A stretch of DNA of 64,000 nt from Opitutaceae bacterium (GTDB lineage Bacteria; Verrucomicrobiota; Verrucomicrobiia; Opitutales; Opitutaceae), in contig PLTZ01000010.1 in the NCBI GenBank assembly GCA_003164715.1, positions 1 through 64,000 on the forward strand, in the 5' to 3' direction. Shown here one piece after another: positions 30-1,070 of this stretch; positions within the stretch are counted from its first letter, which is position 1; each line of letters begins with the position of its first letter. The translations under genes were made by a program, and so were the position numbers. Below the pieces are notes generated by a model, which was not told where the DNA came from, made no database searches, and was given only the letters and a program-made list of their open reading frames with translations.

Positions 30-106
30 TGGTCGGGGCGGTCAGATTCGAACTGACGACCTCTACGTCCCGAACGTAGCGCTCTACCAGGCTAAGCTAC
101 GCCCCG
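30..106 (-). tRNA. tRNA-Pro (anticodon CGG)
   Basis: Read on the minus strand the sequence folds as a full cloverleaf. A 7-bp acceptor stem pairs CGGGGCG with CGCCCCG, followed by discriminator A and an encoded CCA. The anticodon stem CTACG/CGTAG carries the loop TTCGGGA, giving anticodon CGG. The T-arm contains GTTCGAATC. A degenerate second copy of its 5' part lies 951 bases away at 1011-1070. Confidence 0.95.
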
Positions 107-210
107 ACTTTGTCGCGTGAGCGATCAGTAGGCTCCGAGCGGGTCAAGGTCGCAAGCAGAAAAGGGCGTGAATGGCGGTTTCGGGCTCGGCATTGCACCT
201 AGTCTTCGCC

Positions 211-600
211 TTAGCGACTGACGCCCGAGTTCTGGCGGATGAGCTTCGCCACGTCCTCTTGGCTCATCTTTCCAGCTGCCAGAGCCAGCATCATTTCAAC
301 CGCCTTTGGCTCAGAAAGCGTGAGCTTGACGCCGTTCAATCCGAGGAAGACGGCAGCGCAAACAAAGGCCGTACGCTTGTTGCCATCGCTGAAGGGATGG
401 TTCTTTGCGATCCCATGGGCGTAGACGGCTGCCAACGCAGAGAGGTCTGGCTTCTCGTAATGGAAAAGATTTGAAGGACGAGCAAGCGCCCCCTCGAGCG
501 CATTCTCATCGCGGACCCCCGCCAGGCCTCCGTGCTCGCGCAGTTGCTCCTCGTGGAATGCCAGGACCTCTGTCCGGCTCAGCCAAACGGGCTCCTTCAC
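211..600 (-). CDS. doc: Doc-type toxin of a type II toxin-antitoxin module (Fic/Doc fold)
   Basis: The 129-residue length fits Doc (death-on-curing) toxins. The Fic/Doc active-site motif HPFSDGNKR lies at residues 68-76. Lys in the last part of the motif, where AMP-transferring Fic enzymes have Gly, is the Doc form; P1 Doc phosphorylates elongation factor Tu and so stops translation. The target here is inferred from the family. The start is GTG and its first bases overlap the antitoxin stop codon (GTGA), so translation is probably coupled. The antitoxin comes first in the pair, as is usual. It sits between tRNA-Pro and a partial tRNA-Pro copy, which suggests it arrived by insertion. Confidence 0.9.
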   Translation of the reverse strand: MKEPVWLSRTEVLAFHEEQLREHGGLAGVRDENALEGALARPSNLFHYEKPDLSALAAVYAHGIAKNHPFSDGNKRTAFVCAAVFLGLNGVKLTLSEPKAVEMMLALAAGKMSQEDVAKLIRQNSGVSR

Positions 601-824
601 TTTGCAAGTTCCCTCAGCGTGTTGCGGTATTTCTTTGCCACGTCCTTATAGATCTCCATCGCTTTGGCGAAGTTTGGATCGTGCGCTACAACCCTGTAGC
701 CATCCTGGCTCTCGGTGAGGTAAACTGTGTCTCCTTCCGCGACATTCAGGCTTCCGAGAACATCCTTAGGTATGATGACTCCTACGGAGCTCCCAAAGGG
801 GCGAAGTTTAAGGGCGTGGGTCAT
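597..824 (-). CDS. AbrB/MazE-type antitoxin partner of Doc
   Basis: The 75-residue protein has an N-terminal swapped-hairpin AbrB/MazE-like DNA-binding domain (about residues 5-48, with GSSVGVIIPKDVL and a V-x-EGD turn) and a short C-terminal helix ending in RELAK, the part expected to wrap and neutralise the toxin. AbrB-type antitoxins paired with Doc-like toxins are known; the phage P1 partner Phd is a different fold. The start is ATG, and the stop overlaps the toxin start by 4 bases. Autoregulation through its own DNA-binding domain is likely; a short palindrome lies just upstream at 841-850. Confidence 0.85.
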   Translation of the reverse strand: MTHALKLRPFGSSVGVIIPKDVLGSLNVAEGDTVYLTESQDGYRVVAHDPNFAKAMEIYKDVAKKYRNTLRELAK

Positions 825-840
825 AGATGATTATGATCCA

Positions 841-867
841 AGTTATAACTCCCATCTTGAATGTCAA
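841..867 (-). promoter_or_regulatory. Candidate operator/promoter of the toxin-antitoxin pair
   Basis: The perfect 10-base palindrome AGTTATAACT at 841-850 lies 17-26 bases upstream of the antitoxin start. A TTGACA hexamer reads on the minus strand at 867-862. The distance between TTGACA and the TATAAC inside the palindrome is short for a sigma-70 promoter, so the exact promoter is unsure. The location fits a site for the AbrB-type antitoxin to repress its own operon. Confidence 0.3.
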
Positions 868-1010
868 GGCAACGGGAAACGGGTCCTACAACTATTCTCG
901 CAGAGAACCCTCGCCGAAATTCAACGATTTCGTTTTTGGGCGGAGATTTCACACAAAGAACCGCCCGATTTCACAGTCACTATTGTTAGACGTTTATGGT
1001 TAATAACCAT

Positions 1011-1070
1011 CCTCAACGTCCCGAACGTAGCGTTCTATCAGGCTAAGGTACGTCCCGACTCGGCCGCGTG
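1011..1070 (-). pseudogene. Degenerate partial copy of tRNA-Pro (5' half plus upstream flank)
   Basis: This segment aligns without gaps to 60-119, which covers the anticodon arm, D-arm and 5' acceptor strand of tRNA-Pro plus about 13 bases beyond the gene. By direct comparison about 8 of 60 bases differ. The T-arm and 3' acceptor strand are absent, so it cannot be a working tRNA. A decayed direct repeat at the far side of the toxin-antitoxin pair suggests an old tRNA-associated insertion or a local duplication. Confidence 0.7.

Follow-up and report, generated by a model that had tools for sequence, protein, structure and literature searches.

Genomic islands that target tRNA genes and displace a 5' fragment of the gene were reportedly treated by Zhao and Williams in 2002. 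According to the accessible part of the Islander paper, 159 of 3919 islands have a 5' fragment and 2083 a site centred on the anticodon, and an integrase and a length of at least 2 kb are demanded (PMC4383910); an excerpt of another paper cites 5'-fragment displacement as less frequent (PMC6563490). For the Dehalococcoides ssrA islands, the accessible text describes tandem members separated by direct repeats at a single RNA gene, 15 of the 31 without an integration module, with the ssrA 3' end as the repeated part, a Ccr-like integrase and much dehalogenase cargo (PMC3146451). Integrons offer a further parallel, CALINs being described, at least in a figure legend, as cassettes without a local integrase (PMC11389934).

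The locus considered here lies at one end of the window, by which we mean the whole stretch of 64,000 nucleotides analysed, whose first base is the first base of contig C78 of an Opitutaceae genome (G000). Read in the direction of the tRNA, that is on the minus strand, on which all its features lie, the locus consists of a decayed upstream flank (1058-1084) and a displaced, decayed 5' half of tRNA-Pro(CGG) (nt 1-42, 1057 to 1016, 4 mismatches), both recognised by alignment; an element end of about 70 nt (945-1015), the inner end of the cassette, which aligns with that of some cassettes of differing cargo; an AbrB/MazE-type antitoxin gene (824-597, 75 aa, PF04014 and TIGR02609 'doc_partner'); a Doc/Fic-family toxin gene (600-211, 129 aa, PF02661 with E 1e-19, and TIGR01550); a conserved upstream block (165-107), a probable promoter present in most copies, which forms the outer end of the cassette and contains the 14-mer CTTTTCTGCTTGCG at 151-164; and the intact tRNA-Pro(CGG) gene (106-30) called by ARAGORN. 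The truncated copies set a boundary within the intact gene, of which nt 1-42 (65-106) would be cassette-borne and the remaining nucleotides resident. The earlier note, made from the letters alone, had reported a repeat around the tRNA gene, had placed a Doc/AbrB pair between tRNA-Pro and its partial copy, and had taken the copied part to be the 5' half plus upstream flank rather than the 3' end. All three points hold: the direct repeat 60-119/1011-1070 aligns at 52 of 60 positions with an offset of 951 (86.7% identity, E 2e-15 among a small group of related loci) and extends ungapped to 60-133/1011-1084 (81% over 74), its tRNA part being 1016-1057, and the Pfam and TIGR matches of both proteins exceed the curated cut-offs. 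With the toxin adjoining the antitoxin and both frames open, the genes form a Doc-family type II toxin-antitoxin pair, which as cargo probably favours retention of the cassette; as a pair it is ordinary, and its carrier is the unusual part. The window contains the simplest, one-cassette case of an array.

As in the minority class of Islander, so far as the accessible part describes it, a 5' fragment has been moved upstream, an intact tRNA is retained and the crossover falls at the anticodon arm. The window has an intact tRNA gene and, on the same strand and the matching side, a fragment of its end, but the cassette measures only about 0.95 kb against the 2 kb demanded by Islander, and no integrase is recognised inside it, the 5'-side cassettes of the genus giving no match to PF00589 or to the integrase of G033, a genome from another genus of the same family. 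The Dehalococcoides ssrA islands, or 'cis-mobilizable elements', are alike in forming a tandem array at one RNA gene with module-less members, going by the accessible text; the ends of the present cassettes are likewise att-like, as judged by sequence, with no integrase found and no transfer genes evident. Unlike those islands, however, the present arrays repeat the 5' half and the upstream block, a tyrosine integrase is proposed, and the cargo is toxin-antitoxin or defence genes. Integron arrays and CALINs share short cassettes with unrelated cargo, common ends and no local integrase, to judge from the legend cited above, whereas the site used here is a tRNA anticodon arm with phased hexamers. 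Displacement of 5' fragments and tandem arrays with module-less members are each already known, on the accessible parts of these papers; what appears to be new is the combination, in which the 5' half and upstream block are replaced each time by tiny integrase-less cassettes with mostly toxin-antitoxin or defence cargo. This novelty is judged from searches of the open-licence PMC literature, among whose listed titles and abstract starts no toxin-antitoxin cassette arrays at a tRNA 5' half were recognised.

The truncated halves break off no more than about 6 nt from ...CTACGTTCGGGACGT, where the anticodon arm ends; some match for a few bases longer. Their BLAST ends fall at window positions 59-65 (contig-cut or gapped copies excepted), and with this spread and the extra matching bases the exact crossover base is not fixed. 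Sixteen junctions were scored, 14 from the window's group including the L135 locus and 2 from G033, leaving out a G008 copy whose tRNA contains an assembly gap and copies too close to contig ends. TGTGAA or TTCACA occurs within the next 110 nt at 13 of the 16, and all 13 have TGTGAA at +61/+62; first-order Markov shuffles gave a mean of 1.6 of 16 (maximum 6 in 2000), and 4.2% of random 110-mers from the same loci score. A partner hexamer is found at +38 to +40 in 10 of the 13, 22-23 bp nearer the junction than the TGTGAA at +61/62, as TTCACA (exact or with one mismatch) in 6 and as direct TGTGAA in 4. In the window, the hexamer scan places TGTGAA at 948-953 (+62) and, in direct orientation, at 970-975 (+40), both on the minus strand, while G033 has the same junction with TTCACA/TGTGAA at +39/+62. 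The three hexamer-free junctions are the oldest of G005, that of G008 and one of G033. Arm sites of tyrosine integrases are often spaced two helical turns apart, as are the 22-23 bp here, and phased hexamers together with a cut placed in the anticodon arm mark the sites that these enzymes use; we regard the paired TGTGAA-type sites as putative arm sites of an integrase. An element-end pattern searched in the genus gave 4 matches, 3 at the array and one, with 3 mismatches, on another G003 contig. A junction pattern matched 8 of 252 family genomes, all from the window's genus, which is an undercount because G010 and G033 have truncated copies yet go unmatched. An inverted two-hexamer pattern, which the window's direct form cannot match, was found among 387 phylum genomes in G033 only, and in viral contigs not at all.

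Eleven cassettes are complete or nearly so and range from 0.9 to 4.6 kb, tRNA half excluded, nine of them being shorter and two longer than 2 kb. Their lengths are 909 in G000, 906 in G006, 986 and 4570 in G005, 854 in G002, 1414 in L135, 1412 in G008 (with an assembly gap on the tRNA side), 1666 and 862 in G003 (the latter stopping at the contig edge), 4578 in G009 (tRNA at the contig edge) and 817 in G010 (contig edge). BLAST aligns the inner ends of differing-cargo cassettes over about 65-70 nt in four pairs and the outer ends over about 60 nt in more than four. The cargo falls into several kinds. Doc/AbrB family 1 occurs in G000, G006 and a 9.6 kb outer block of G005; the distantly homologous family 2 occurs in G008, L135 and G003, and in G009 directly outside the junction. 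PIN/VapC-like toxins, with no antitoxin identified, are carried by G005 and L135, and a second PIN gene in G003 has a putative antitoxin matching no model. A Phd-like antitoxin (PF02604, below cut-off) is present in G002, G003 and G010, and also in the G005 outer block; the RelE-like toxin beside it in the first three genomes has no Pfam or NCBIfam match and is named from context alone. AbiEii with a DUF6088/AbiEi-like partner and a TOTE primase-helicase comes after PIN in G005 and after Doc2 in G009. A broken-looking IS transposase with an rve domain lies in the G005 outer block as well. An AAA_14/DUF4143 gene, 74% identical between G012 and G033, adjoins a junction in both genomes, the other cassette end being seen in neither; the G033 junction concerned is the one without hexamers. 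No transfer genes are evident in the cassette reading frames. Seven of the eight cargo families next to 5'-side junctions (Doc1, Doc2, PIN, the second PIN pair, Phd/RelE-like, AbiE and AAA_14) are co-oriented with the tRNA and only TOTE is opposed, giving about 0.035 one-sided in a hand binomial that counts the distantly homologous Doc1 and Doc2 separately, includes the AAA_14 cassettes without a seen second end and omits the other genes of the G005 outer block and the TIR genes. A TIR-TPR gene (800-805 aa, 72% identical) is situated directly outside the outermost junction in G008 and G003 (L071:8791-11193 and L072:785-3202).

When a 3.3 kb query was run against 57 genomes including the window's own, 56 matched somewhere, mostly at the tRNA, and several copies of the window's 60-165 unit were found at the tRNA-Pro locus within the genus. 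Truncated 5' halves occur there in 9 of the 13 genus genomes (G000, G002, G003, G005, G006, G008, G009, G010 and G012), up to three in tandem; in G011 the intact tRNA has no truncated copy within the 20 kb read, and in G001, G004 and G007 the array locus was not recognised in the query search. The assemblies of the genus are at draft level, and several arrays continue past a contig end. A genome scan gave ten stretches, of which seven seem to repeat contigs of the genus, two (L128 and L129) belong to Opitutae and one, L135 (5.6 kb), is a further array; L135 is labelled as an Acidobacteria MAG yet carries an Opitutaceae-type array and tRNA-Pro, through either a binning error or transfer. The window's Doc toxin is 91-93% and its AbrB antitoxin 91-92% identical to the counterparts in G006 and G005. 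The earlier note had named relatives with the same pair and no repeat as evidence against its reading; G006 has the pair at the same place with the repeat present, and in G005 a window-type pair has one truncated half farther out and two closer to the tRNA. Loci without the repeat, which that note had thought worth looking for, do exist: in the stretches read from G011, L128 and L129, an intact tRNA-Pro is preceded by the same upstream block and lacks any truncated copy. Nor did ARAGORN find two intact tRNA-Pro(CGG) genes in any fetched locus; G033 has one at each of two contig ends, and because their 3' flanks are identical they look like a single gene split by the assembly.

The upstream block is missing from the outermost copies of G000, G005, G006 and G010. 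Across the 13 genus genomes all 12 exact matches of CTTTTCTGCTTGCG lie at this tRNA gene; eight more carry one mismatch, 3 at the tRNA-Pro gene and 5 elsewhere, the off-locus ones being counted as chance because a reversed-pattern control gave 18 at up to one mismatch. We considered and rejected the block as a cassette-specific signal: it also precedes the array-free tRNA-Pro genes of G011, L128 and L129, and is therefore read as a native upstream block acquired by the cassettes. The block probably acts as a promoter; a sigma-70 scan of window 1-1300 returned no consensus site.

Cassette identity was judged against the neighbouring TonB/ExbD/TPR operon, a single operon rather than a genome average, in ten genome pairs with both aligned. 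DNA identity is higher in the cassette than in the operon in nine of the ten, in three of these nine by less than 8 points. The TOTE-AbiE cassettes of G005 and G009 are 87.8% identical over 4417 nt against 68.8% in the operon, of which only 292 nt aligned; the values are 86.9 against 69.8% for G000/G005, 84.4 against 69.6% for G005/G006, 83.4 against 76.3% for G000/G006, 82.1 against 67.4% for G002/G003 and 79.8 against 67.7% for G008/G009 (331 nt of operon). Differences are small for G002/G010 (74.9 against 67.3%), G003/G009 (73.1 against 69.1%) and G003/G010 (72.9 against 69.6%), and the Doc2 cassettes of G003/G008 run the other way (75.1 against 80.2%). In all three arrays holding two or more displaced halves, mismatches drop toward the tRNA: from the outermost to the innermost, 5, 1 and 0 in G005, 3 and 2 in G003, and 9 (ungapped, with a one-base deletion) and 0 in G002. 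When an old half is joined to the window's 3' half, ARAGORN calls a tRNA each time, with an altered anticodon in the hybrids from one G005 half, one G033 half and the gapped G008 copy. Since every hybrid reads as a tRNA, excision need not destroy the tRNA gene; no excision product was seen. The G005 half concerned (L069:12839) has a base change in the anticodon loop, and its hybrid is called tRNA-Ser(CGA).

The earlier note's remark that no integrase remains is borne out in the window and in the genus's 5'-side cassettes, whose contigs gave neither a PF00589 match nor a match to the G033 integrase there; among the genus array contigs only G005 has a single PF00589 match, located 3' of the tRNA. 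In G033, where an intact tRNA-Pro accompanies two truncated halves, a 418-aa integrase begins 125 bp upstream of the intact gene and a 484-aa relative lies about 70 bp upstream of one truncated half. The closest relatives outside this genome, in G118 and G236, both face a tRNA 5' end (Pro CGG and Ala CGC). In a tree of 30 loci from the G033-integrase homology search, not all its matches, plus L142, the four integrases facing tRNA 5' ends (L142 being so classed since its tRNA is a truncated half) form one clade with 100/100 support, apart from 27 others, of which 15 lie beside tRNA 3' ends and 12 have no tRNA within 300 nt of available flank; L151 is a long branch. Homology and position, with conserved Arg and Tyr columns judged by eye, lead us to call these 5'-facing proteins tyrosine integrases, although Pfam gave no family at E<=0.001 and NCBIfam only weak recombinase matches. 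Because the 5'-facing integrases have no Pfam match, a PF00589 search alone could miss such genes, a gap that the G033-integrase homology search fills. Neither this search nor the tree found a member of the clade in the window's genus, for which reason an integrase acting in trans is something that we only infer: genus matches at E<=1e-20 are just 28-30% identical and lie on other contigs, and the three genus integrases in the tree fall outside the clade. At E<=1e-50 the G033 integrase matches 2 of 372 genomes, G033 and G236, in an order-level sample that may not include all genus members, and one viral contig holds a 31% identical relative. BLAST found no displaced 5' half near the G118 and G236 integrases in the stretches fetched (3.9 kb upstream for G118). 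As a separate observation, three adjacent tyrosine recombinase matches lie in a row at G000:C58:15078-17470 and also on G003:C145, G012:C14, G012:C1 and G009:C66, an arrangement resembling 'recombinase in trio' elements.

We propose, as a likely reading, that the cassettes of the window and its relatives are integrative elements which lack an integrase, replace the 5' side of the tRNA gene and are mobilised in trans by a tyrosine integrase; that integrase, mobility and excision are what we infer. In the window, a cassette of about 0.95 kb without an integrase would have entered tRNA-Pro(CGG) at the anticodon arm. One side of its attachment site would consist of the upstream block and roughly the first 42 nt of the tRNA, the other of an arm in which two TGTGAA-type sites stand 22-23 bp apart. 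Such an integrase, supplied in trans, would link the cassette 5' half to the resident 3' half and so restore the tRNA with a new upstream region, while the old upstream region and old 5' half would be shoved outward and decay there; repeated insertions in relatives would then yield an array with the oldest cassette outermost. Support for this cassette reading comes from the near-common cut point, the fixed hexamer geometry, the shared ends with different cargo, the decay gradient and the mostly higher identity of cassette than operon. The earlier note had left a choice between an unusual crossover and a tandem duplication of the tRNA-Pro region, one copy having decayed with the toxin-antitoxin pair trapped between. 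Duplication would explain why the copy has its upstream flank and the same orientation, yet the copies differ in cargo, array-free tRNA-Pro genes with the same upstream block exist, and the copies halt near one point, past which lies not tRNA but a shared element end with hexamers at fixed offsets; this largely contradicts duplication, which we set aside as very unlikely, and fits the crossover.

Circular cassettes might also enter by homologous recombination through the roughly 100 bp of shared upstream block and 5' half, with no dedicated integrase, and both the 78-95% identity of the shared stretches and the arrays without a recognised integrase agree with such a route. The first cassette of an array would need a different one, however, the phased hexamers and the anticodon-arm cut are as a rule the features of tyrosine integrase sites, and G033 carries an integrase at the same place; as the means of entry it seems improbable, and homologous recombination may act later by reshuffling cassette positions. 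The genus does have an integron-type integrase, the G000 protein scoring 256 bits against TIGR02249, slightly below the cut-off of 265, so the arrays could be thought of as integron-type cassettes moved by it. These integrases sit on contigs other than those of the arrays, though, and by eye the consensus of integron sites, GTTRRRY, is not matched by the tRNA core. Around the integrases, strings for the tRNA core and the cassette end were found just at the mismatch limit (4/17 and 3/13), which makes the integron integrase a weak candidate for the motor and this explanation scarcely credible.

The G000 gene (L094:1339-2364, on G000:C51) is the only integron-type integrase gene that was scored. 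Similar genes were judged by eye to be present in L095, L096, L097, L098 and L103, as were small Phd/RelE-like pairs next to the genes in L095 and L098.

Under the proposed insertion in trans, an integrase-less array at the 5' side of a tRNA gene, loaded with toxin-antitoxin and defence genes, would let defence islands expand in little space and would escape island finders that, like Islander, filter for an integrase and set a minimum of 2 kb. The arrays also make it possible to test whether the promoter of a bacterial tRNA gene can be replaced repeatedly by mobile DNA. A bolder and more speculative suggestion is that tRNA-Pro(CGG) might serve as an integron-like platform, with the anticodon arm as docking site and the displaced upstream regions as promoters reading into the next cassette; several displaced upstream regions are still well conserved. 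If so, every insertion would swap the tRNA promoter and leave the old one expressing defence cargo.

The 3' side of the tRNA gene also shows segments of its own. A 2.4 kb segment 3' of tRNA-Pro in G008:C143 (L071:4791-7190) contains a TIR-like gene (below the Pfam cut-off), a DUF4145 gene and a third gene and ends at a 30-nt tRNA 3' fragment; it is possibly a 3'-side counterpart of the cassettes. The segment in G005:C126 (L069:18547-20000 and L070:1-3262), in which the PF00589 match is short (27 bits) within a possibly broken open frame of 251 aa, has a 29-nt tRNA-Pro 3' fragment at its far side. A 19-mer, CACTTCATGGTGGAGAGCC, at window positions 6-24 occurs 7 times in the G000 genome against once for a reversed-pattern control, on contigs C3, C39, C62, C71, C78 and C86 and always within about 110 nt of a contig end. 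In five of these contigs it lies 4-7 nt beyond a tRNA 3' end (Pro CGG, Pro TGG, Pro GGG, Ala and Leu) and in the sixth about 50 nt beyond tRNA-Glu; it may represent the terminus of a multi-copy element that sits downstream of tRNA genes and broke the assembly.
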